This document shows positions 25,340 to 54,633 of a stretch of 64,000 bases of DNA, one piece after another. The stretch is from NCBI GenBank assembly GCA_951828515.1, contig OX639992.1, positions 3,698,217 through 3,762,216 on the forward strand, given 5' to 3'. Each line of letters opens with the position of its first letter. Positions within the stretch are counted from its first letter, which is position 1. A program made the position numbers and the translations under genes. This DNA is from an uncultured Poribacteria bacterium (lineage in GTDB: Bacteria; Poribacteria; WGA-4E; WGA-3G). The notes under the pieces were generated by a model. The model searched no databases. It was not told the origin of the DNA and saw only the letters and a program-made list of their open reading frames with translations.

Positions 25340-25490
25340 GATGAGTAAAGTTGTCGGTTAAAGAGGATTTTGATCTAACAACTCCACCTCTTGTTTGGTT
25401 GTCAGTTAGTTGTTGGCTGTCGGTTGAAAGAGACTCTTGATGAAACAAAGTACCTCTTAACTGATAACCGCAGACCGATGACCATTCAAT
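25340..25490. repeat. Heptamer repeat hairpins between ftsE and ftsX
   Basis: Two units of the form GTCGGTT-AAAGAGG ... CCTCTT-AACTGATAACCG lie back to back and separate two genes that normally overlap. Confidence 0.6.
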
Positions 25491-26133
25491 GGATACCGCC
25501 ATCCCGTAGTTCGATAATTCGCTTATTACATTTTTCAGCGAGGGTTCGGTCGCTTGTGGAGATGAAGATCGTCATCCCCTGAAAGTTAAGCGCATCAAGA
25601 AGTGCCATCACCTCAAGCGAGAGGCGCAAATCTAAGCCTTCTGTTGGAGCATCCGCAAGGAGTAACAAAGGATTGTTGATAATTGCTCTCGCTATAGCAA
25701 GGCGGCGTCGCTCGTTGCCAGATATTTCTGATGGGAGCGCATTGTGATGGTGATATAACCCCATTTGATTCAGGAGTTTATCGGCATTTTCCTTAATCAA
25801 CTGTGTTGGGGTCCCTATCAGTCGCTGTGGTAGTGCCAAATTTTCTCGAACTGTCTTGTTTTCTAAGAACTTGAAATCTTGAAAGACGAGCCCTATCTTC
25901 TGTCGAAAGTAGGGGAGACTGACTTTATCCAACATCGCAAGTTGTTGTCCAACGACACTCATGTCACCCTCTACTGGGTCTAAATCAGCATATAACAATC
26001 GCTGGAGTGTTGTCTTACCGGAACCACTTGGACCAACGAGAAACACAAATTCGCCGCGCTCCACACGAAAACTCACCTTCTCGAGCACGCTAAGTTCGCC
26101 ATAACTGAAACTGACCTGGTGCAACTGTATCAT
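25486..26133 (-). CDS. ftsE: FtsE-like ABC ATPase lacking Walker B Glu and H-loop His
   Basis: A 215-residue nucleotide-binding subunit of FtsEX. Walker A GPSGSGKTT (residues 34-42) and the Q-loop VFQDF (Q85) are normal. The signature is ISGNERRR instead of LSGGEQQR. Walker B reads LLLADAPTEGLD, so the catalytic glutamate that follows D161 is Ala162. The switch region reads IFISTSDRTL, with Ser194 in place of the usual histidine of ATHD. Both changes are clear in the DNA (GAT GCT CCA; ACA AGC GAC). The protein should bind ATP but hydrolyse it poorly. The gene stands upstream of ftsX on the same strand. Confidence 0.88.
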   Translation of the reverse strand: MIQLHQVSFSYGELSVLEKVSFRVERGEFVFLVGPSGSGKTTLQRLLYADLDPVEGDMSVVGQQLAMLDKVSLPYFRQKIGLVFQDFKFLENKTVRENLALPQRLIGTPTQLIKENADKLLNQMGLYHHHNALPSEISGNERRRLAIARAIINNPLLLLADAPTEGLDLRLSLEVMALLDALNFQGMTIFISTSDRTLAEKCNKRIIELRDGGIH

Positions 26134-42979: not shown

Positions 42980-43105
42980 CTGAAAAGACATTTTAACCAA
43001 GAATTGGTGGATACGACTGGCGCGGGTCTCTCTGTCGCATGCGCACACCTCGTAAATCGGCACCTATGTAAGACCTGTCCAGCCTGCGAGCCGGAAGGTG
43101 TATAA
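42980..43105 (+). CDS. 41-residue Cys/His micro-protein with probable CTG start
   Basis: AAGGAG (42968-42973) is followed after six bases by CTG and an open frame of 41 codons ending four bases before the ATG of the metal-binding protein gene. The product reads KRHFNQELVDTTGAG, then SVACAHLVNRHLCKTCPACE. It thus has four cysteines (one in CAH, three in CKTCPAC) and three histidines, a compact metal-binding pattern. The ideal SD, the tight spacing to the next gene and the location within the metal cluster support it. The non-ATG start is the weak point. In-frame TTG 43007 and GTG 43010 have no SD. I recognise no family. Confidence 0.5.
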   Translation: MKRHFNQELVDTTGAGLSVACAHLVNRHLCKTCPACEPEGV

Positions 43106-43109
43106 AATT

Positions 43110-44051
43110 ATGCAGAGAATATACATTTCAGTGTGTTTCATAGGTATACTGGTATGGTCTGGCTGTGATCCGAAGGGACAACCGGATGCTGCCACAGGCG
43201 ATAAGCTTCGCGTTGTTGCGACAATCGGTATGATTACTGATATTGTTAAAAATGTCGGCGGTCCGCGCGTTGAGGTGACCGGGATAGTGGAACCTGGCGT
43301 AGACCCACACTTTTACAATCCGACGCCTAAAGATGTTCAAAAGCTCGGTTCAGCACACATCATCTTCTATAACGGGTTGCACCTTGAAGCAAAAATGGTG
43401 GACATCCTTGCGAAGATGTCGGTGGACACGCTGACGGTCGCCGTAACAGACGCTGTAGATCGGAGTCTACTGCTAAAACCCCGAGAATACGAGGGACTCT
43501 ACGATCCGCACTTATGGTTTGATGTGAAGCTTTGGATGCAAGCGGTGGGAAAGGTTCGCGATGCCCTGAGTGAATTCGATGCCGATAATACTGTCCTGTA
43601 CCGAAGCAATGCCGAACGCTACCTCACGAAACTCATGGAACTCGATGAATACGTAAAGTCGCGAGTGGAACGCGTGCCATCTCAGCAACGCGTTCTTGTG
43701 ACGGCGCACGACTGTTTTAACTACTTCGGAAAGGCGTACGGGTTTGAGGTGCGCGGATTACAAGGTGTTAGCACCGCGACAGAAGTCGGTATCGCTGATG
43801 TGCGGGAATTGGCAACGTTTATTGCGGAGCGGGGTATCTCTGCTATTTTTGTAGAGTCATCCGTCTCTTCACGGAGTCTCGAGGCGGTGAAAGCCGCTGT
43901 GAAGTCAAAAGGATTTGATCTGAAGATTGGTGGTGTGCTCTTCACAGATGCTATGGGAAACGAGGGAACCCCTGAAGGTACCTACATCGGGATGATCCGA
44001 CATAATATTGATACGATTGTCCATGCTTTGATTGGAGAATCGGAGTTATAA
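43110..44051 (+). CDS. Metal ABC transporter substrate-binding lipoprotein (TroA/ZnuA/MntA family)
   Basis: A 313-residue cluster A-I binding protein for Zn2+ or Mn2+. The lipobox is VWSGC. Metal ligands are visible as His in VDPHFYNPTP, His in YDPHLWFDV, His in TAHDCFNYF and the acidic ligand near FTDAMGNEGTPEGTYIGM. The last motif and DPHLWFD favour the TroA/MntA branch. There is no His-rich loop as in ZnuA. I chose ATG 43110, four bases after the micro-ORF stop; GGAAGG lies upstream. No permease or ATPase partner gene is in the window, which is unusual for this family. Confidence 0.9.
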   Translation: MQRIYISVCFIGILVWSGCDPKGQPDAATGDKLRVVATIGMITDIVKNVGGPRVEVTGIVEPGVDPHFYNPTPKDVQKLGSAHIIFYNGLHLEAKMVDILAKMSVDTLTVAVTDAVDRSLLLKPREYEGLYDPHLWFDVKLWMQAVGKVRDALSEFDADNTVLYRSNAERYLTKLMELDEYVKSRVERVPSQQRVLVTAHDCFNYFGKAYGFEVRGLQGVSTATEVGIADVRELATFIAERGISAIFVESSVSSRSLEAVKAAVKSKGFDLKIGGVLFTDAMGNEGTPEGTYIGMIRHNIDTIVHALIGESEL

Positions 44052-44121
44052 ACCGTTGGATTCCAGCCAGCGGGTTTCTATCAAGGCACGGCACGTGCTG
44101 CCTAAAGGAGACCATACAATA

Positions 44122-44382
44122 GTGTTGAAATTTTTCAATTCGCAAAAGCAGAGCGACCCACAGCAACTCATCCAAGTCAAATCGTGGGTCTCTCAAGCCT
44201 TTGACCTATCAGAAGACATCTCCGTGATGATTACTCAGTTGCAGTGCACCGAAGAAGGCTGCCCGCCTATTGAAACGGTCATTGCAATCATGGAGACACC
44301 GGGAAAGCCCCGGCAATACAAGATTCACAAACCACTGGCAGAGGTGAAGCAGACGGACATTGTTAGCTTGACCACTGACTAA
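44122..44382 (+). CDS. Conserved small protein of CobW-type metal clusters
   Basis: An 86-residue soluble protein. Key segments are LIQVKSWVSQAFDL, SVMITQLQCTEEGCPPIETVIAI and PRQYKIHKPLAEVKQTDI. I have seen this kind of sequence beside CobW genes, mostly in cyanobacteria-like contexts, but cannot name a function. The paired cysteines (QCTEEGCPP) may bind metal. The start is GTG 44122, with AAAGGAG at 44104-44110; the longer upstream frame overlaps the preceding gene. CobW begins 20 bp downstream behind AAGGAG. Confidence 0.65.
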   Translation: MLKFFNSQKQSDPQQLIQVKSWVSQAFDLSEDISVMITQLQCTEEGCPPIETVIAIMETPGKPRQYKIHKPLAEVKQTDIVSLTTD

Positions 44383-44401
44383 ATTCAACAAGGAGAGAAA
44401 G

Positions 44402-45754
44402 ATGAACACAGCTATGCTAAACAATCAAGTACCCGTCACCGTGTTAACGGGCTTTTTGGGGTCTGGTAAAACCACGCTTCTCAACCGCATTCTCACCGAA
44501 AACCATGGCAAACGTATCGCCGTCATCGAAAACGAGTTTGGCGAGATCGGTGTCGATAATGATTTGGTCATCGGTGCCGAAGAAGAGATTTTCGAGATGA
44601 ACAATGGTTGCATCTGCTGCACGGTGCGCGGTGATCTCATCCGTATTTTGGGGAATCTGATGAAGCGTCGTGATAAGTTCGACTACATCATGGTCGAAAC
44701 CACAGGGCTTGCGGACCCCGGGCCAGTTGCTCAGACGTTCTTCATGGACACCGAAATGCAGGAGAAACTGCAACTGGATTCCGTCACGACAGTGGTGGAT
44801 GCCAAACACATCTGGCAGCACATCGATGACAGCGACGAGGCGCGTGAACAAATTGCCTTCGCCGATGTCATTTTGTTGAACAAGATTGACCTTGTAACCG
44901 AGGAAGAGTTAAATCAACTGGAAGCCAGAATTCGCAGCATGAACGGGGCAGCGAAGATTTATCGAACGAAAAACACCGTGGTTGAAATGGACAAGATTCT
45001 CAATGTCGGCGGATTCGATCTGGACCGGGCGATGGAGGTTGATCCCCAGTTTATGGAACCGGAGTATCCCTTTGAATGGGCTGGTGTTTATAACCTTTCG
45101 GCAGGCACGCATGAACTGGTTCTTCAAGAAGGTCCTGACCCGACGATGAAAGTCGCGTTGGTGCCCGTAAATGAGTCAACCGATGAAGCTTTGAAGACCG
45201 CTGTTGAGCCAGTCGTTATGGTTTTCTCCGATGATGAGCATGAACTTTCGGCGGGTGGCACCCTTCAACCAGGTGGACAACTCATTGCGTTGAATCTCAC
45301 AGCGGACGAATTACGCTTTGACGTACAGATCGGCCGCTCCGGTGCTTACGCACTGTTTACGGAGCATCACCCCGACGAATTTCAAGCACAACTCTTTGGC
45401 AGTGGTGCCCTTGTCAAGCCAGTTGTTGAACGCGAATTTAAGCCAGACCACGAACATGATGACGAAGTTACATCGGTCGGCATCACAACCCCTGGCGACC
45501 TCGACCCCGACCGACTGAACGATTGGATTAGCGATCTGCTTCGCACGAAAGGTATCGACATCTTCCGCATGAAAGGTATTTTGAGCATCAAAGGGCAGCC
45601 AAACCGATTCGTCTTCCAAGGTGTTCACATGCTCTTCGACGGTCGCCCCGCCCGCCCGTGGGATGGTGAACCACGCTACAATAGCCTCATCTTCATCGGG
45701 CGCAACCTCGACCGGACCGAATTGACGGAAGGATTTGAAGCATGTCTCGCTTGA
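44402..45754 (+). CDS. CobW/COG0523 GTPase (zinc metallochaperone type)
   Basis: A 450-residue G3E-family GTPase proposed to load zinc into client proteins. Motifs: Walker A GFLGSGKTT (about 17-25), IENEFGEIGVD, the metal site GCICC (CxCC), Walker B VETTGLADP and NKID. The C-terminal CobW_C domain (GIDIFRMKGILSI...FQGVHMLFDG) is split from the GTPase by an extra beta-rich insert (about 225-345) that ends in a DHEHDDE metal-binding loop. It overlaps the next gene by 13 bp and is translationally coupled to it. The context supports zinc homeostasis. Confidence 0.92.
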   Translation: MNTAMLNNQVPVTVLTGFLGSGKTTLLNRILTENHGKRIAVIENEFGEIGVDNDLVIGAEEEIFEMNNGCICCTVRGDLIRILGNLMKRRDKFDYIMVETTGLADPGPVAQTFFMDTEMQEKLQLDSVTTVVDAKHIWQHIDDSDEAREQIAFADVILLNKIDLVTEEELNQLEARIRSMNGAAKIYRTKNTVVEMDKILNVGGFDLDRAMEVDPQFMEPEYPFEWAGVYNLSAGTHELVLQEGPDPTMKVALVPVNESTDEALKTAVEPVVMVFSDDEHELSAGGTLQPGGQLIALNLTADELRFDVQIGRSGAYALFTEHHPDEFQAQLFGSGALVKPVVEREFKPDHEHDDEVTSVGITTPGDLDPDRLNDWISDLLRTKGIDIFRMKGILSIKGQPNRFVFQGVHMLFDGRPARPWDGEPRYNSLIFIGRNLDRTELTEGFEACLA

Positions 45755-46809
45755 ACAACCTGAGCAACCGCTTTGTCCAGCCCTCTCAACTGCGCGAAAA
45801 TTGGACCGCAACCATCAACGACCACGTCATTGATCTGGCGTGGTCCCCTGATGGGAAATACATCGCTGCCGCGTCGGTTCTCGGTCCGGTGACAATTTTT
45901 GAAGGTCGTCGTCGAGTGGTTATCCATGCCTTTGAAGGGCATGAATTCGGCACAATGTCAATCGCGTGGCGTCCAGACAGCAAGGTGCTTGCAAGCGCAG
46001 GACAAGATGGGGAAATTCGGTTGTGGGATATGAAAAGTGGCGAAGCGACCCATTCGCTTGACGGCGGCGCAGCATGGGTTGAGCACCTGGCTTGGAGTGG
46101 CGGCAAAAAACCGATACTCGCCTCTGCTGCTGGTCGTAAACTGAAACTCTGGAACGCTGTCGGCGATCTTGTTCGCGAATATCCTGACCATCAGAGCACG
46201 ATTTCTGGTATTCAATGGAAACCACATGTAAGGCAACTTGCCTCGATTACCTACGGCGGTGCCACGCTGTGGGACCCGCAACAGTCGGAAGCCCTCCACC
46301 GATTGGAATGGCAAGGCTCATCACTGGTGATTGCATGGAGCCCTGACGGCAAACACATCGCCACCGGAGATCAAGATTCGACCGTACATTTCTGGATTAT
46401 GTCTACCGGGAACGACTTGCAAATGTCTGGCTATCCGACGAAAGTGCGAGAACTCTCGTGGGATGCCACGAGTCGATACTTGGCTACGGGAGGCGGTCAG
46501 GAAGTTACAGTATGGGATTGTTCCGGGCGCGGACCGGCCGGTACCAAACCCATTACGCTTTCCGGGCATCAGGATTTTCTCAGCGTTGTGCGTTTTCAAC
46601 ATCGCGGAAAACTGCTGGCCTCAGGCGGTGCCGACGGTCTGGTCTACGTCTGGCAATTGCGAGGCAACCTCGGTTCTCGGGCGGTTCATGAAGCCGCTCT
46701 GACAGTGGGGGTCACAAGCCTCGTTTGGTCACCGAATGACCAGTATATTGCTGTTGGCGACGAGTCGGGTGGGGTGAGCGTTTTTTCGGTGATAGCACCC
46801 ACTACCTAA
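45742..46809 (+). CDS. WD40-repeat protein coupled to CobW, C-terminus altered by IS right end
   Basis: A 355-residue cytoplasmic beta-propeller with about seven WD40 units, among them AWSPDGKYIAAAS, AWRPDSKVLASAGQDGEIRLWD, RFQHRGKLLASGGADGLVYVWQ and VWSPNDQYIAVGDESGGVSVFS. It probably scaffolds or regulates CobW. The start overlaps cobW by 13 bp. The last codons (CCC ACT ACC TAA) belong to the right-end hairpin of the adjacent TnpB element, so the original C-terminus was probably replaced or trimmed by the insertion. The seven-blade fold appears complete. Confidence 0.88.
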   Translation: MSRLNNLSNRFVQPSQLRENWTATINDHVIDLAWSPDGKYIAAASVLGPVTIFEGRRRVVIHAFEGHEFGTMSIAWRPDSKVLASAGQDGEIRLWDMKSGEATHSLDGGAAWVEHLAWSGGKKPILASAAGRKLKLWNAVGDLVREYPDHQSTISGIQWKPHVRQLASITYGGATLWDPQQSEALHRLEWQGSSLVIAWSPDGKHIATGDQDSTVHFWIMSTGNDLQMSGYPTKVRELSWDATSRYLATGGGQEVTVWDCSGRGPAGTKPITLSGHQDFLSVVRFQHRGKLLASGGADGLVYVWQLRGNLGSRAVHEAALTVGVTSLVWSPNDQYIAVGDESGGVSVFSVIAPTT

Positions 46810-46980
46810 AGGCAGGGGCTTCGGCTTCGTCGCGACTGCGGTTTTCTCTAAGAGATGACCGTCTTATTTTCGCTCCACCCGCGGGCGTTTCCCTGAAACT
46901 CTGAAGCGAGTCTCAGGCACATCACTAAATAGTGGCTATCCCTGCCCGCAAAATGTTTATCGCAGCGTTGATGTCCCTGT
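46798..46980 (-). ncRNA. Candidate omegaRNA of TnpB element 2
   Basis: By analogy with other TnpB elements the scaffold would run from the tnpB 3' end through GAAACGCCCGCGGGTGGAGC to the terminal AAGCCCCTGCC-TTTA-GGTAGTGGG hairpin. The guide would then derive from the WD40 gene's 3' sequence. The 5' limit is uncertain. Confidence 0.35.
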
Positions 46981-48040
46981 CGTGGTGTGAACCACATGCC
47001 GGACATGTCCACTGCCTATCAGAGAGCGTAAGGGTTTCGTTGTGAAAACCACACTCACTACACGGTTTTGTCGTCGCAGTCCACTGACCAACTTCAAGGA
47101 ACTGACGCTTATGTTTTTGACACTTATACTTCAATATCTCAACAAACTGGTAAAACGCAAGGTCGGAGACTTTGCGTCCCCACAAGCGTTTCATACCGTC
47201 AAGGTTCAACGTTTCAAGGACTATCGTATCAAAACGTTTACAGAGTTTACTTGCGAGGTGCCAGTGAAAGTCTTTACGTTGGTTGCTGATTTTCCGATAC
47301 AGACGCGCGATTGTTCTTACACACCGCCACCAGCCGTTAGAACCTTTAACTTTACGAGAAAGTGCTTTGTTGAGAGACCGAAGTTTCTTCAAGGAGTGTT
47401 TCAAAGGTTGTGGGTGTTGTATTTTCTCACCCGTGCTCAACGTCAAATATGCGTCTTTCATGCCGAAGTCTGCCCCAACTCTCTGACCTGTTGCTGACAG
47501 TTCTTTGGTATCTGTATGATCTGTCACTATACAAATCCAATAGCCACCGCAATTATCACGTTTGAGGGTGATACGTGCGATAGTTCCGTGGAACTCACGG
47601 TGTTTATGAAATGTGAACGGAATACGCCTAAAAGACCAAATCTGTTTTCTGGCATTCCACTCACGAAAGGTTATCGTAATACGATTATCGTTTAACGCAT
47701 AACCCGCTTGTGTAAAGGTAATAGACTTGAACTTACGTCTCGGCTTATGTCTCGGTTTACCGCCTAACTTCTTGAAAAAGCGGACGTAGGCTTCATCAAT
47801 ACGTTTCAACTCTTGTTGGATCGCTTGGCTCGGCAACGCATTCCAATGCGGGTGTGTCGTTTTCTTGAGTTCTTTGACGTGTGCGGACATAGCATGATAG
47901 TTCGCATAGGGCAACCCGTCTTTGTATCTTTGGTCTTGCCACCTATGGAAGTAATCATGCACCTGCCACATATCGTCAAGCAAGTTGCCAATGCGGATCG
48001 TATTCGATTGTTTGCCAAGCGGGTATTTATAGGTTTTCAT
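46925..48040 (-). CDS. tnpB: TnpB RNA-guided endonuclease (second, divergent)
   Basis: A 371-residue RuvC-like nuclease. Catalytic Asp is in GADFGMKDAYLT, Glu in IVLETLNLDGM, zinc ribbon CSEC ... CPAC, and the final Asp in DRDINAAINIL. All key residues are present. It shares little sequence with the TnpB at 11874-13100 outside these motifs, yet the two elements have a common left-end structure. It lies downstream of the metal cluster on the opposite strand. Confidence 0.92.
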   Translation of the reverse strand: MKTYKYPLGKQSNTIRIGNLLDDMWQVHDYFHRWQDQRYKDGLPYANYHAMSAHVKELKKTTHPHWNALPSQAIQQELKRIDEAYVRFFKKLGGKPRHKPRRKFKSITFTQAGYALNDNRITITFREWNARKQIWSFRRIPFTFHKHREFHGTIARITLKRDNCGGYWICIVTDHTDTKELSATGQRVGADFGMKDAYLTLSTGEKIQHPQPLKHSLKKLRSLNKALSRKVKGSNGWWRCVRTIARLYRKISNQRKDFHWHLASKLCKRFDTIVLETLNLDGMKRLWGRKVSDLAFYQFVEILKYKCQKHKRQFLEVGQWTATTKPCSECGFHNETLTLSDRQWTCPACGSHHDRDINAAINILRAGIATI

Positions 48041-48287: not shown

Positions 48288-48380
48288 ATGAAAATCCAGA
48301 TTACAGAGGATATAGAAGACATCAAGACCTCAAAGTGCGGAAGTCTTGGTGTTTGGGCAAGAAAGATTCACCTGTTCTAA
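48288..48380 (+). CDS. 30-residue ORF, doubtful
   Basis: ATG 48288 with AAAGG upstream opens MKIQITEDIEDIKTSKCGSL... and ends at 48380, overlapping the last codon of the permease on the other strand. It could be a fragment of a gene cut by the neighbouring insertions. No family is recognised. Confidence 0.2.
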   Translation: MKIQITEDIEDIKTSKCGSLGVWARKIHLF

Positions 48381-49801
48381 ATCTCAACGCGAACAAAGGC
48401 GAGATATGCTCCAGATAAAAGGATTATGACAAACAGGAGTAGCAACAACAGATCGACTGCCGCTGTGTTGAAGTCCTTACTGAAACTCAAGGTGTCTTCA
48501 AATTTCGGGATTGCCTCTAACCGGACAGGCTTCTGCGACATCCCTTCACGAACCCCAAAGATATGGAGGCTCTCCGGATCAGCTTGATCGGTGTCAACGA
48601 TGAAAACCTGATATTGTTGGGCGTAAGATTTAACGTTCTCTAAAAATTGCAAATGCCGCTCAAATCCCGTTCCGGCAAAGGCCTCAAGGAGGTGCTGGAA
48701 AATGGTAACAGGTGAAATTTGGGTGATCGCACGTGCCCGACGGACCTGAAAGATTCGCTGTTTTAAGCGTTCTTCATGCAGGCGTTCCTGCTGTGCTGCA
48801 TCTTTAGTGACGTACTCACCCGCCGTTTGTAATATTTGGATTCGGGTCAAACTCTTATCCGGATTATACCGAAGTGCATAGTATTCGTTCCCAAGTTCCT
48901 CCTCAAATCGGGCACTACGTTCAGAGAATCCGAGAGCAGACTTTGGAGGTGTAGAACGTCCGGCAATCGAAACGAGCGTACTGGGCATGAAAACGACAAG
49001 GGTGACCCAAACCAAGAGAAGTATCACGAGGCTCACCGCGCTCCGCTGCACACGTGCCGATACAAGCAGTCCCAATGCGAGAAACAGACTTATGTATAGG
49101 AGCGTAATAAAGAAAATGAGACCTAAACGTCCCCAAGCCTCCGCACCGAGGTTTACATCGCTTGACGTGGAAATTACTAAGAGGTTCACCAAGACGGCGA
49201 GTGTGAAAGGAATGTTTATACTGATTAATGCCCCTAAAAATTTACCAATCAGGACGGTGTGCCGCGGAATCGAATTCGCAAACATCAATCGCAGTGTGCC
49301 TTGCTCACGCTCGTGGGAAATCGAATCGAAAGTGAATAGGAGCGCGATGAGGCTTAAGACGTAACCGATAATAAAACCCCAATCCACTTTGGTGACATTT
49401 GGACGAACGTTACGCAAATCCGGGGTAACTGGGTGATATGCCAGTATCCAGAAACTTTCTAAGCGCGGTTCACCGCCCTTCCCCCAACGGCTGTAACCCG
49501 CTTCCACGTTCCCTGGCAAAAAGGTCTCGCCGCCTTCCGCACAGAAACGGAGATCGGAGGGCTGCTTGTAAAGATATCCGGGTCCCTTCTCCGCGAGTTT
49601 ATACAAACTGTCCTCCGCGTGAGATGCTAAGCGATTCTGATATCTGGCGACAGCATTGTGGTAGTTCTGGACGCGTTTTGGGTGTTCCCGGAGATGCACA
49701 ATCGCGTTGGTCAGCATCAAGCCGAGCAGTAACACCGTTGCCAGGGCAAATCGGAGGCTATTGAGATTATCATAGAGTTCGCGTTTTGTGATATGCCACA
49801 T
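48377..49801 (-). CDS. ABC-2-type transporter permease (DUF3526-like), second of a pair
   Basis: A 474-residue membrane protein. TM1 is at the N-terminus (FALATVLLLGLMLTNAIV), followed by a large extracytoplasmic loop. TM helices then follow with the ABC-2 landmark HEREQGTLRLMFANSIPRHTVLIGKFLGALI, a second periplasmic region (about 285-430), and a final TM ending LLLFVIILLSGAYLAFVRVEI. It is a paralogue of the permease encoded just upstream on the same strand; together they would form a heterodimeric pore. No ATP-binding gene lies next to them, and a TnpB element follows. The substrate is unknown. Confidence 0.82.
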   Translation of the reverse strand: MWHITKRELYDNLNSLRFALATVLLLGLMLTNAIVHLREHPKRVQNYHNAVARYQNRLASHAEDSLYKLAEKGPGYLYKQPSDLRFCAEGGETFLPGNVEAGYSRWGKGGEPRLESFWILAYHPVTPDLRNVRPNVTKVDWGFIIGYVLSLIALLFTFDSISHEREQGTLRLMFANSIPRHTVLIGKFLGALISINIPFTLAVLVNLLVISTSSDVNLGAEAWGRLGLIFFITLLYISLFLALGLLVSARVQRSAVSLVILLLVWVTLVVFMPSTLVSIAGRSTPPKSALGFSERSARFEEELGNEYYALRYNPDKSLTRIQILQTAGEYVTKDAAQQERLHEERLKQRIFQVRRARAITQISPVTIFQHLLEAFAGTGFERHLQFLENVKSYAQQYQVFIVDTDQADPESLHIFGVREGMSQKPVRLEAIPKFEDTLSFSKDFNTAAVDLLLLLLFVIILLSGAYLAFVRVEI

Positions 49802-49895: not shown

Positions 49896-51407
49896 CTACA
49901 CTTCACTTTTGACGAAAATTAGAAATATCACGATGAAAAGCGCGACATTCATCATGAACAAAAGGCATACATCCGGCAAAGCCCGCTTAGCATTCGTATT
50001 CACATCAACCCTTTGGAAAGAGAACTGTGGTAGATTACTCCAATCAGCAGCACCTTTGTCCGAAGAAAACCACTGTCGAGATTTGAAAATTTCTTCATCA
50101 TAGAAATACTCAATCACGTGCTGTCTGTAGCGTCTCGCAGCGTCGAAAAAATCTCTGACACCGAGCAGATCGGTGCCAGCCCACGCTTGTGTTGCAGCAT
50201 CATACAGCCCCACGGGTGAGAGTTTCAACCAGCGTCGCTCCACATGTGCGGGTTGAATGAAGATGTCTTCCAGTGCGGGTTTTCGGATGGACCACGTTCG
50301 GTCGGCTGTTCCAGTAACCTGTGCCCCGAGGAAACCGAAATAATTCTGAGCGTGCGGAATCCTTGATTCAGCTTTCTCGTTGAGCGTATCAACTTCCATC
50401 TTGCTTTCGTAGGTGTACGATAGGCGATCAATGTTACCCCTAAGATATGCGCCGTACCACCCACTGCCTGTAATCTTAAAATGCCAATCTTCCCCTGGCA
50501 GAGCATCAGTGGCGAGGAAGTGTTTCCGATCTCTATCGAATTCTTCCCATATCTGTTCGATTTGATTGAAAGCGGATGCCGCGCGGGTCTGGGGTGCCTC
50601 CGGTTGCGGGACCACAGCAAGAATCATATTCGGATAGACGAGGACTAAAAAACCCCACACGAACATGGAGAGCATCAATGCGGTGCGTGTTCGACGGGTT
50701 GCCGCCGAAATCAGCAGTCCGATGAGATAGAAGACGGAAAGATACACAACGGTCGTTAAAATAATCCCGCCGATCCGTAAAAAATCATCGGTATTCAGAG
50801 AAATGAAAGGGGTCGTCGTCAGCAAGATGACTGCGAGGAGCAGACTCATTAGCAATGGCACGAGTAAGCAGAGCATCGCAGAGATGTATTTCGCAAGCAG
50901 GATATGTCCGCGACGGACGTGCGACGTTAAGACCAGCCGTAAGGTGCCGCGCTCATGTTCTCCCGCGAGGGTGTCGTAGGCGAAAATCAGTGCCAATAAG
51001 CTCAGGATCACCTCAAAGATAAAAACAATATCGATGGAGGCGAACATATCCATGAACGGATTCTCCGACCCATGCATTCCGGCATCCCACAGCGATGGAA
51101 CAAACGTATGTGATACCCCTACCTCGTTACCGAGTTGTTTATCGAACCCGACATTGAAAATGCTTAACGGATTCGGGGTCCGGTCGACAAATAATTTCTC
51201 TGTCCCTGCGGAATACGTTTTTTTTTCCTGAAGCTGCAGCTGATGCATTTTGACAGCAGCGTTATGGCTTGCCAAGCGTTGCTCGTGGTCCCCAATAAGC
51301 ACTACCGTATTCGCGACGACAAGCGATAGCATAATAAAGACGGCTGCCGCAAATCGGAACGTCATTAAATTGTCGAGAAGTTCTCGACGGATGAGTGTTG
51401 TGAGCAT
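49896..51407 (-). CDS. ABC-2-type transporter permease (DUF3526-like), first of a pair
   Basis: A 503-residue membrane protein. TM1 is FAAAVFIMLSLVVANTVVLIG; the central TM block contains EHERGTLRLVLTSHVRRGHILLAKYISAMLCLLVPLL, the ABC-2 coupling-helix region. A large soluble domain (about 290-470) precedes the last TM helix (VCLLFMMNVALFIVIFLIFVKSEV). It shares layout and motif order with the permease downstream. The ECF sigma-WD40 gene lies 132 bp upstream on the same strand, so the three may be transcribed together, the sigma protein sensing a condition and the permeases acting on it. Confidence 0.82.
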   Translation of the reverse strand: MLTTLIRRELLDNLMTFRFAAAVFIMLSLVVANTVVLIGDHEQRLASHNAAVKMHQLQLQEKKTYSAGTEKLFVDRTPNPLSIFNVGFDKQLGNEVGVSHTFVPSLWDAGMHGSENPFMDMFASIDIVFIFEVILSLLALIFAYDTLAGEHERGTLRLVLTSHVRRGHILLAKYISAMLCLLVPLLMSLLLAVILLTTTPFISLNTDDFLRIGGIILTTVVYLSVFYLIGLLISAATRRTRTALMLSMFVWGFLVLVYPNMILAVVPQPEAPQTRAASAFNQIEQIWEEFDRDRKHFLATDALPGEDWHFKITGSGWYGAYLRGNIDRLSYTYESKMEVDTLNEKAESRIPHAQNYFGFLGAQVTGTADRTWSIRKPALEDIFIQPAHVERRWLKLSPVGLYDAATQAWAGTDLLGVRDFFDAARRYRQHVIEYFYDEEIFKSRQWFSSDKGAADWSNLPQFSFQRVDVNTNAKRALPDVCLLFMMNVALFIVIFLIFVKSEV

Positions 51408-51539: not shown

Positions 51540-54440
51540 TTATTCGCTTTTGGATGAATCCGTGAGAACTTCATTCCAATCCCACAAGAGAATTGTGCCA
51601 TCTGCCCCGGTGCTAACGAGCGTCTTATTATCAGATGAAAATGCCAACGTCTCTACCTTTTGTGTATGCCCATCAAGAACAGTGATCCTATTTCCTGTTG
51701 TAACTTCCCACAATTGGATTGCCCCGCCGACAAGTCCGCTAACAAGAATTGCACCATCTGGTGAAAATACCAACAATTCGGGATGGATTCTGTACGTCCA
51801 TGTATTACCTTCGTTACCCTCATCAGGGTTGACTGATAGAAGTGTATTACCCGTATTTACATCCCATATACGGATCAGTTCATACGAACTGGCAGCAAGC
51901 AAGGTGCCATCAGATGAAAAACGCAGTGCTAAAATATGCTCACGGTTCCCTCGGTCTATCGGTTTCGCAAAGGCTGCTACTGCTTTTCCGGTTGCAACGT
52001 TCCACGTCTGAATTCCGCCTTGATTGGTCCCACTGGCAAGCATCGCGCCATCCGGTGAAAACGCCAAAGCGGTAACGTGTGGCATATTGTGAATATCGGC
52101 TTCCCGATCAACGAGAGGGATATTCAATTCATCACCAGTTTCTATATTCCACAAATGAATTTTTTTCCCTTCAGAATCGAAGGCTACCGTTTTCCCATCA
52201 GGCGAAAAGGTCAGACGTGAGGGGGTTTTAATATCTGTAAGGGTCGCCAATTCGATCCCCGTGCTGACATCAGTCAAACGAATCGAAGAACCTGCACTCC
52301 AAAGCGCGTGGTTGAAACCTGGCCTGAAGATTACGCTGCCCCAGGCACGAACACTGGCGAGTTTCGTTCCATCAGGCGAAAATGCTAAAGTTGCTAACCA
52401 ATCTTGATGTCCTGCCGTATGAACGGTGGATTTTTGTGGTGTTTTCAGATGCCAAAATGTAATTTCACCATTAAAGGCTACACTGACAAGCGTGGAACTC
52501 TCTTCAAAGAAAGCCGCTGCTCTTACCGACTCCGTATGTCCTGTGATGTGGGGTGGCAGCGGTGCCCCAGTTCTTGTCTGCCAGAATCGGATGGCACCGT
52601 CGGCACTGGCACTTGCAAGCGTGGTGCCGTCAGCGGAAAACGCTAACGCAGTAATACCGTTGACATGCCCAGTGAGTGTCGCGAGTCGCTCACCCGTGGT
52701 AGTATCCCACAACTGCACTGTTTTATCAACACTCCCACTGGCAAGCATTTTACCATTCGGTGAAAATGCTAACACATTTGTCCATCCGGTATGTTTTTGA
52801 AGGGGCATCGATTCGTGGTTATTAATATCCCATAATCGGACGGTTGTATCCTTGCTTCCACTGGCGAGGCGAGCCCCATCGGGTGAAAACGCCAATGCTA
52901 AGACTTGGGGGACCCATATATCCGCTGACCTTGCATGTCCCTTGACGAGCGTCGATAGTGCTTTACCAGTTTTTGGATCCCATAACTGTATTTTCCCATC
53001 AGCCCATCCAATCGCAATTTTATCCTCTGTGAGCGCGAAGACCTTAGAATAAGGGGTCCCTAAACTAAATTGTGCTTCAGTCTTCTTCACATATCCGTGT
53101 CCAGTCTCAACATCTAACCAACTGATTGTGTCGCCCCCGTTACCTAAACTGACAAGTGTTTTGCTATCTTCAGAAAACTGCAATACGGATCCGACAAAAG
53201 GTCCACCAGTGAGCGGTACCTTACGATCCGCAGCCATCTCCCACAACTGGAGTTCCTGTCCGCGAAACTTGCCCCCGCCATTCGCAAGGAAGCGGCCATC
53301 CGGTGAAAAAGCAAGGGATTGGCACATTCCCGCAAATAGAAACTTCTCTTCACCGGTTTCCATATCGTACAGCCACACACCGATATCTGTTCCGATAGCG
53401 AGTTGTATTCCATCCGGCGAAAACTGAATCGCATTGATGCCGCCCTTTCCGAAACGTGCTTTTGCCATTTTAGGCAGTTCCGATTGAGAAAAGTCTTTAT
53501 CCGTTTCCTCTGATTCTGCCTCTGCAACCAATGCTGAAACCTCATTAGGCTGTCGATGAATGGCATTGCTCTTGTTTGATGTATTGACGTTCCCGATCTG
53601 CGTCCGAACATCAGGTTTGGATTCAAGGTTTAGCACGATAGGTGCCTCAATGAGTTCAACTGTCATTTCAGATGCCGCATCGAAACTGTAAGGTTTCTGG
53701 AAACGCGACAGGTATTGACTGCCAACACCTAACATCAAAAGGAGAACTACCAATGTGGAAACGCCTATTGCCGACGGCACCAACGGTTTACCACCAGACG
53801 GTGCAATCGGTTTCAGACGCGAGATTTCGCGTATGATATTCTCTGTGAGATTCGGCGTAATTTGGAAGTTGCCTAAAGCCTCTCTTATCATCGGTTCCTC
53901 CTTCTTTAACCGCTGTCTCGCTCGATGGAGTCGACTCTTAATCGCGCTAACCGATACACCCAGAAACTCGCTGATCTGCTCATAATTCATTCCCCCAAGG
54001 TAGTAAAGCGTGACAACTGTGCGGTCGCTCTCTTGTAACTTCGCAAGCAACTTTTTGACGATCTCGCGCTGTGCTTCTGCTGTTGTCCGCTCGTTTTCCT
54101 CAATAACATATCCAGAATACGTCGCTTTTTCTAATTGCGCGCTGCTTGTGTTTTCCAACGACTGCGTTGATAAACGTTTCTGACGCAGCCACATTTTGCA
54201 GTAGTTCGCCGCTATCACATAGAGCCAACTCGCGAAACGCTGCGGTTTTTTCAGTGTTGAGAGTTTCTGATACGCCTGCAGGAACGTATCCTGTGTAATA
54301 TCCTCGGCGATATGGAAATCCCCGATCTTCCGCCACGCGAGTGCGTGAACGGATTTCTGATATTTTCTCACAAGCACGGGAAACGCAGTATCATCGCCTG
54401 AAAGCACGCGTTGGATGAGTTGAGCATCGTTGTTTTTCAT
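51540..54440 (-). CDS. ECF sigma factor fused through a TM helix to two WD40 propellers
   Basis: A 966-residue one-protein transcription sensor. Sigma-2 spans about 15-90 (DITQDTFLQAYQKL, FASWLYVIAANYCKMWLR). Sigma-4 spans about 125-180 (YLGGMNYEQISEFLGVSVSAIKSRLHRARQRL). A single TM helix lies at 223-244 (IGVSTLVVLLLMLGVG). A linker precedes fourteen WD40-type units (about 325-960), enough for two seven-bladed propellers. With the sigma part inside, the propellers should be extracytoplasmic. No separate anti-sigma gene is present, so the fused part may hold the sigma domain at the membrane. An ECF-like promoter precedes it, suggesting autoregulation. Confidence 0.9.
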   Translation of the reverse strand: MKNNDAQLIQRVLSGDDTAFPVLVRKYQKSVHALAWRKIGDFHIAEDITQDTFLQAYQKLSTLKKPQRFASWLYVIAANYCKMWLRQKRLSTQSLENTSSAQLEKATYSGYVIEENERTTAEAQREIVKKLLAKLQESDRTVVTLYYLGGMNYEQISEFLGVSVSAIKSRLHRARQRLKKEEPMIREALGNFQITPNLTENIIREISRLKPIAPSGGKPLVPSAIGVSTLVVLLLMLGVGSQYLSRFQKPYSFDAASEMTVELIEAPIVLNLESKPDVRTQIGNVNTSNKSNAIHRQPNEVSALVAEAESEETDKDFSQSELPKMAKARFGKGGINAIQFSPDGIQLAIGTDIGVWLYDMETGEEKFLFAGMCQSLAFSPDGRFLANGGGKFRGQELQLWEMAADRKVPLTGGPFVGSVLQFSEDSKTLVSLGNGGDTISWLDVETGHGYVKKTEAQFSLGTPYSKVFALTEDKIAIGWADGKIQLWDPKTGKALSTLVKGHARSADIWVPQVLALAFSPDGARLASGSKDTTVRLWDINNHESMPLQKHTGWTNVLAFSPNGKMLASGSVDKTVQLWDTTTGERLATLTGHVNGITALAFSADGTTLASASADGAIRFWQTRTGAPLPPHITGHTESVRAAAFFEESSTLVSVAFNGEITFWHLKTPQKSTVHTAGHQDWLATLAFSPDGTKLASVRAWGSVIFRPGFNHALWSAGSSIRLTDVSTGIELATLTDIKTPSRLTFSPDGKTVAFDSEGKKIHLWNIETGDELNIPLVDREADIHNMPHVTALAFSPDGAMLASGTNQGGIQTWNVATGKAVAAFAKPIDRGNREHILALRFSSDGTLLAASSYELIRIWDVNTGNTLLSVNPDEGNEGNTWTYRIHPELLVFSPDGAILVSGLVGGAIQLWEVTTGNRITVLDGHTQKVETLAFSSDNKTLVSTGADGTILLWDWNEVLTDSSKSE

Positions 54441-54485
54441 CGGACACCTCTGAGAAGAGTATATTCATCAATTCGTATCAACATT

Positions 54486-54515
54486 TAAGATGCTATTTGA
54501 AATAAAAAGGTTTCA
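54486..54515 (-). promoter_or_regulatory. ECF-type promoter upstream of the sigma-WD40 gene
   Basis: Minus strand TGAAACC (54515-54509), 16-nt spacer, CATCTTA (54492-54486), about 45 nt before the start. The -35 AAC motif and C-rich -10 fit ECF sigma promoters, as expected for autoregulation. Confidence 0.55.
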
Positions 54516-54633
54516 CAATTCTGCAAATTTTTATCTTCCAAGCTTCGCAAGAGGATCCAAGTTGATGAAAGGAGGTTTGAGATTCCGTTCTGGCGATAAC
54601 GAATAGTATGACTATAGGTAATGGGGAAGTGGG

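Follow-up and report, generated by a model that had tools for sequence, protein, structure and literature searches.

A probable membrane-anchored ECF sigma factor with a double WD40 propeller in Poribacteria and a candidate portable sigma-receptor module

The window analysed here, a stretch of 64,000 nucleotides (contig OX639992.1, positions 3,698,217 to 3,762,216), belongs to the 5.85 Mb single-contig genome of a member of the Poribacteria, which are abundant uncultured symbionts of sponges. The gene under study and its surroundings are listed in Table 1. A first-pass annotation made from the sequence alone had described sigma-2, sigma-4, one transmembrane (TM) helix and fourteen WD40 units in one chain, and this architecture, which is far above chance, was recovered by TIGR02937, Pfam, hydropathy and AlphaFold2. 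The ECF sigma-70 superfamily model TIGR02937 matched residues 22–181 with 100.6 bits (cut-off 42.9 bits). Fold and alignments to SigW and RpoE revealed sigma2 and sigma4 without sigma3, as in ECF sigma factors, and the recognition helix aligned with the sigma4 end of both proteins. WD40 repeats were found by Pfam across residues ~397–955. The structure prediction proposed earlier for the blade count gave 14 blades (2 × 7) over residues 326–954, mostly with pLDDT 80–95, the number being counted by hand from the AlphaFold2 strand list. Foldseek matches to the ectodomain were tandem seven-blade proteins, namely Aip1 (1nr0), Pwp2 and axonemal double propellers.

Table 1. Features of the sigma-TM-WD40 gene and adjacent DNA (window positions; residues of the encoded protein)
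Feature	Position	Strand	Remarks
Sigma-TM-WD40 gene	51540..54440	-	One uninterrupted ORF, 966 aa
Sigma region 2, residues 5–90	54171..54428	-	
Sigma region 4, residues 125–180	53901..54068	-	Recognition helix VSAIKSRLHRARQRLKK
Cytoplasmic juxtamembrane segment, residues 181–211	53808..53900	-	Conserved; candidate built-in inhibitor
Putative transmembrane segment, about residues 222–243	53712..53777	-	N-in by charge; hydropathy, charge, conservation
Conserved stalk, residues 244–283, predicted extracytoplasmic	53592..53711	-	Common to nearly all ectodomain types
Ectodomain, two seven-bladed WD40 propellers, residues about 326–957	51570..53465	-	Pfam, AlphaFold2, Foldseek
ECF-type promoter-like motif GTGAAACCTT-N13-GCATCTTAAATG	54482..54516	-	About 42 nt 5' of start codon
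Portable module (promoter + sigma + juxtamembrane + TM + stalk)	53540..54542	-	91% DNA identity to L181:8494-9495
ABC-2 type permease 1 (PF12679/DUF3526)	49896..51407	-	133 nt 3' of sigma gene
ABC-2 type permease 2	48377..49801	-	

The two permeases likely share an operon with the sigma gene. A crude test with a simple motif, which missed at least one ATPase-like frame, found no ABC ATPase in this permease locus or in most others, so the pair does not form a complete ABC transporter as encoded at the locus; an ATPase-like frame lies at window 25486-26133, far from the permeases. Directly 3' of the permeases, a putative TnpB-like transposon protein is encoded at 46925-48040 (-). Further on, 43098-46809 (+) holds in a row a predicted ZnuA-like metal-binding protein, a predicted CobW-like GTPase and a standalone WD40 protein (45742-46809) with no clear signal peptide; the three genes are possibly a zinc cluster.

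Between the sigma domain and the propellers, one strong hydrophobic segment could be detected, with a mean Kyte-Doolittle value of 2.29 over 19 residues at residue 221. Hydropathy near or above 2 occurred at the same place in 30 of 38 close paralogues in the same genome, and 159 of the 165 distinct ORFs of the family that were collected from loci of relatives had a TM segment there; many of these loci come from overlapping assemblies, so that the counts are of distinct sequences and not of independent events. The family ORFs were richer in K/R N-terminally of the segment and in D/E C-terminally, a positive-inside pattern, and standalone neighbours homologous to the ectodomains often carried a signal peptide. 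By these three kinds of evidence, the propeller would lie outside the inner membrane, and the membrane tethering with an outside ectodomain put forward in the first-pass annotation gained support from them. The feature of at least one TM helix after sigma, described for ECF48/52/53, was likewise recovered by hydropathy and charge, with AlphaFold2 silent. In neither of two AlphaFold2 models was the segment built as a helix (pLDDT mostly below 50), and the TM call therefore rests on hydropathy, positive-inside charge and conservation.

The segment was missing in 8 of the 38 paralogues; a DnaN clamp, an M61-like peptidase and a redoxin are among the domains joined to sigma in this group. With roughly one own paralogue in five devoid of the TM, the sigma factor can also work as a soluble protein. 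Homologues without a TM had been named beforehand as evidence against tethering; they exist in this number, but no WD40-type member without a TM was found among the family members examined. The eight paralogues also bear on another reading, in which the hydrophobic segment is not an export anchor and the protein is cytoplasmic or peripherally membrane-bound, its WD40 domain binding cytoplasmic partners as proposed for planctomycete ECF57. This would agree with the usual cytoplasmic location of WD40 propellers, with the lack of a clear signal peptide in the standalone WD40 protein of the window and with the helix that AlphaFold2 did not build. However, the strong hydropathy at one fixed place in most own and other members, the charge asymmetry around it and the signal peptides on standalone homologues of sister ectodomains (lectin, LRR, Kelch, PD40) encoded next door argue against it, and we consider a cytoplasmic protein quite unlikely.

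The WD40 propeller was present on the window gene as first described, but it is one of many interchangeable ectodomains, a point that the first-pass annotation missed. Behind the TM, the 30 own paralogues carried WD40 (n = 2), BNR/sortilin-type propellers (n ~ 16), LRR with or without a glycosidase-like part (n = 3), Kelch, PD40, C-type lectin with CarboxypepD_reg, redoxin, an M16-like domain and unassigned domains. The idea of WD40 as the defining partner of the sigma factor was dropped in view of these other C-terminal types. All 74 named loci among the closest relatives of the window sigma belonged to Candidatus Poribacteria. Genomes of the same genus held 19 to 77 sigma copies each, often in tandem with one gene about every 3.3 kb. 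The juxtamembrane-TM-stalk segment occurred in every searched genome of the window's family, with 1–3 copies in most genomes of two neighbouring families and none in a third family or in the other orders and classes sampled. The few neighbouring-family copies that were read, with domains assigned by eye, mostly bore a BNR-type propeller and in one case carboxypeptidase-regulatory-like repeats; on these sequences the WD40 ectodomain therefore looks secondary in the family.

Several arrangements were seen among these paralogues and relatives. In the arrays L184-L186, L187, L188-L189 and L190-L191, WD40, BNR-type and other ectodomains alternate in tandem sigma-TM-X genes. A sigma-BNR-type propeller without TM is encoded at L181:2202-5045, L180:637-3447 and L179:546-3278, loci that also hold ABC-2 permeases, and it is a possible soluble partner or competitor. 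A close sigma paralogue at L042:3595-5310 (-), genome 1589095-1590810, is fused to a complete DnaN sliding clamp with three Pfam clamp domains; the genome has two more DnaN copies, and a relative at L128:10986-12359 matched the same fusion. A 406-aa frame at genome 1584464-1585684 (-) (L041/L042) joins ECF sigma regions to a following FtsZ GTPase domain, and a separate 426-aa frame at genome 1649525 gave a tubulin/FtsZ GTPase match. At L051:7967-12067 (+), genome 2919966-2924066, a 1366-aa frame combines ECF sigma regions with FtsZ (GTPase, C-terminal) and DNA polymerase III alpha (PHP, NTPase, finger), which may be a genuine fusion or an error of assembly.

Comparison of the cassettes at the DNA level revealed a block with sharp ends. 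The cassette closest to that of the window lies in another genome, at L181, and was 93% identical over 283 residues. DNA homology between the two ran from ~100 nt 5' of the start codon, promoter included, to residue ~301, and the directly adjoining DNA was without homology on both sides. The L181 ectodomain is a BNR-type propeller, and BLAST showed no similarity between it and the WD40 ectodomain of the window protein. A second pair, L187/L192, shared a similar block of 1,012 nt at 92%, and cassette pairs more than 90% identical were found with ectodomains lacking a BLAST match to each other. A unit of ~283 residues, up to 96% identical, thus bears unrelated ectodomains in different genes. Across 99 sequences, the mean top-residue frequency was 0.72 in the juxtamembrane segment and the stalk and 0.78 in sigma2/sigma4, and it fell to 0.22 past residue 283. 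The PD40 member lacks the stalk.

Ectodomain types were scattered over the tree of the 38 own sigma genes, and a non-sigma homologue of the ectodomain stood among the neighbours in 10 of 36 loci (permuted mean 0.86, maximum 5). These neighbouring secreted homologues suggest that the module was put in front of local secreted-protein domains. A split sigma/anti-sigma ancestor was searched for as separate TM-stalk proteins, and none was obtained except one orphan 99-aa frame without sigma (genome 3888907-3889152, -), which is probably a decayed copy; in every other case the TM-stalk was fused to sigma.

The module includes an ECF-type promoter-like motif. The window motif scored 12.0 with a matrix trained on other genomes only, the best score in the whole window (next best 9.6). 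The family motif, ATGCAACttT-N13/14-GCGTCAcTAtat, is of the ECF -35/-10 type and was first spotted by eye. Expectation-maximisation placed it 5' of 111 of 145 non-redundant copies, compared to 2% of shuffles and 3 of 145 reverse strands. The held-out matrix from other genomes found it 5' of 18 of the 38 own copies and 0 times on the reverse strand, with 41 matches in 592 kb against 4 in reversed sequence, and the strict consensus had 19 whole-genome matches against 3 for a control pattern. The controls were mononucleotide shuffles, reverse strands and reversed sequence, and the held-out test guards against over-fitting. In orthologues of the window gene, the spacing between motif and start is unchanged. 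A promoter-like motif 5' of the factor's own gene, a feature of ECF sigma factors, was present in most family upstreams and in the window copy, the latter with a weaker -10 element (GCATCT; family consensus GCGTCA). In the matrix scan, half of the own paralogues had no motif directly 5', and some of these may be transcribed from further upstream. It had been asked earlier whether the sigma-4 residues might be unable to bind a -35 element; their recognition helix is intact, and the genes of the family are preceded by an ECF-type motif.

The first-pass annotation had proposed the two downstream permeases as response genes. Other motif matches preceded ABC-2 permeases, ABC exporters and secreted proteins beside sigma genes, and the motif stands before three permease ORFs. 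Twelve of the 20 ABC-2 permease groups in the genome lay within 3 kb of a family sigma gene on the same strand (expected 0.62), a number reached in 0 of 10,000 circular shifts, near-zero shifts being excluded. Given the motif and this linkage, the two permeases are good candidates for response genes. At the family level the proposal was upheld, but the order of the window gene and its permeases, which was to be followed across genomes, is conserved only in part: it was intact in genome G012, present as fragments in G006, displaced in G007 and reversed in G009. At L182:1093-2643, orthologues of both permeases occur only as fragments with internal gaps.

Degenerate copies of this kind, together with the tandem arrays of near-identical cassettes, the sharp homology block and the orphan TM-stalk fragment, would also agree with an expansion that is mainly a by-product of recombination, in which tandem copies with a homogenised 5' end are maintained by gene conversion and many of them, perhaps including the window gene, are redundant or unexpressed. 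Against this, orthologues from several genomes keep frames of ~1000 codons open, with sigma, TM, stalk and promoter all intact, and in the orthologues of the window gene the motif stands at a constant distance from the start. We consider such a by-product very unlikely as the main explanation.

The segment between sigma4 and the membrane may hold the inhibitory part of the chain. In the second AlphaFold2 model, built on 99 relatives, two helices were predicted here (residues 182–191 and 198–209), and the sigma domain had pLDDT mostly of 86–97. The sigma model aligned over its full length to the anti-sigma-bound forms SigW/RsiW (Z 15.0) and CnrH/CnrY (Z 14.2), with modest quality (rmsd 3.4–4.7 over ~150 residues), and to most RNA-polymerase-bound sigma forms by one domain only. 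CnrY, the class II anti-sigma of CnrH, inhibits by two short helices, of which the first sits on one of the domains sigma4 and sigma2 and the second on the other (PMC7406223, PMC4598750). The window protein resembles this system in its short two-helix cytoplasmic segment beside the TM and in a sigma model similar to closed CnrH; CnrY, in contrast, is a separate protein, and no sequence similarity between it and the juxtamembrane segment was found. Pfam and PDB sequence searches gave no relative of the juxtamembrane-TM-stalk region, so the comparison with CnrY is one of layout and of the closed pose of the sigma domain only. Because two conserved helices are laid out as in CnrY, a built-in inhibitor is plausible.

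Taken together, we favour the reading, at a probability of about 0.6, that the window protein is a single-protein transmembrane receptor with an ECF sigma factor as its cytoplasmic output, which is self-inhibited and, once active, transcribes its own gene together with the ABC-2 permeases next to it. The propeller outside the inner membrane would bind a ligand or a partner protein. At rest, the sigma domain would be kept in a closed form at the membrane, and the simplest means would be the juxtamembrane helices of the same chain, in the role of a small CnrY-type anti-sigma. A separate anti-sigma, which the first-pass annotation had thought dispensable, might then not be needed. Ligand binding would change the stalk and the TM, and the sigma factor would then be cut free, as a first choice by site-1 cleavage in the stalk followed by a housekeeping site-2 protease, or alternatively be uncovered while still tethered. 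The active sigma factor would then drive its own gene and the permeases. The activation step would accordingly be either proteolytic release or loss of self-inhibition. Most bacteria encode a site-2 protease. Of the proteases whose search had been suggested earlier, one strong site-2-protease candidate was found in the genome, but no protease is encoded in the locus of the window gene.

Action without cleavage deserves separate consideration. As in one-component regulators of the ToxR/CadC type, a ligand-driven change or dimerisation of the ectodomain could uncover sigma2/sigma4 at the membrane. The conserved stalk and TM could transmit such a conformational change, the locus holds no dedicated protease, and with so many ectodomain folds, coupling by conformation would be simpler than coupling by way of a specific site-1 protease. 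However, a tether would hinder the sigma factor in joining RNA polymerase, as it must, and for the membrane-anchored ECF fusions studied so far, IutY and SCO4117, proteolytic release is either shown or assumed (PMC8999054, PMC5826349). Activity of the tethered form is thus rather unlikely in our view, and proteolytic release of the self-inhibited receptor is preferred.

The window protein was compared with known systems by their described features, and membership of ECF57 or ECF52 is not claimed. The ECF57 sigma factors of Planctomycetes (WP_015250107.1, Singulisphaera acidiphila) carry C-terminal WD40-like repeats, and some planctomycete WD40 sigma factors (Tuwongella/Gemmata) were recovered in Triton/SDS fractions (PMC8999054, PMC8567305). 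Like these, the present family combines an ECF sigma factor with C-terminal WD40-like repeats, found here by Pfam and AlphaFold2, and has many young paralogues. In ECF57, a cysteine of sigma2 and another of sigma4, both conserved, are said to link the two domains (PMC8999054). This pair is absent here, where C81 is conserved in 96 of 99 sequences, whereas position 153 is Cys in 18 of 99 and not in the window protein. Also unlike ECF57, a single conserved TM-stalk cassette here carries many ectodomains, WD40 being one of them, and the phylum is different. ECF52 (SCO4117, Streptomyces coelicolor), exclusive to Actinobacteria, consists of sigma, a zinc-finger anti-sigma domain, a TM, a proline-rich stretch and a carbohydrate-binding module, with autoregulation and proteolytic release proposed (PMC5826349). 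It shares with the window protein the order of sigma, TM and extracytoplasmic domain in one chain, but the zinc-finger HxxxCxxC of ECF48/52/53 between sigma and TM occurred in 0 of 99 sequences and had no Pfam match. IutY (ECF243), a sigma factor fused to a membrane-bound anti-sigma and activated by Prc/RseP proteolysis (PMC8999054), is likewise a single chain with a membrane anchor. Residues 181–300 here had no Pfam match, a FecR-like anti-sigma was not among the best 25 families for the whole protein, and no cell-surface-signalling receptor was seen in the locus. A 2014 study of Poribacteria reported many WD40 and LRR genes, in a text without mention of sigma (PMC3909097), and the open literature searched contained no paper naming poribacterial sigma fusions or dealing with sigma-factor regulation in Poribacteria. 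The window protein works most like a TM-fused ECF sigma factor; what sets it apart is that the ectodomain on the common TM-stalk module can be exchanged, and how far the family has expanded. With ECF57 (WD40) and ECF52 (TM) as precedents, what looks new is the portable module and its swapping between ectodomains.

Signals from outside normally reach ECF sigma factors by way of a separate membrane anti-sigma. In the present proteins, a single chain unites output, membrane anchor and sensor, and the sensor is exchangeable. We give an even chance to the wider reading that, in one family of Poribacteria, a portable ~1-kb promoter-sigma-TM-stalk module recombines in front of unrelated secreted sensors and so yields, in combinatorial fashion, dozens of one-protein transcription receptors per genome, whose sigma factors are closely similar and whose promoter motifs are related, with a constant output and a variable ectodomain, possibly for recognising the sponge host or its chemistry. 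This raises the question of what separates the responses of dozens of sigma factors whose DNA-reading parts are so closely similar. If true, the family would be a natural set of chimeric receptors, which would tell which part of the chain (juxtamembrane segment, TM or stalk) carries the signal and would offer a way to make a secreted binding domain into a transcription switch.
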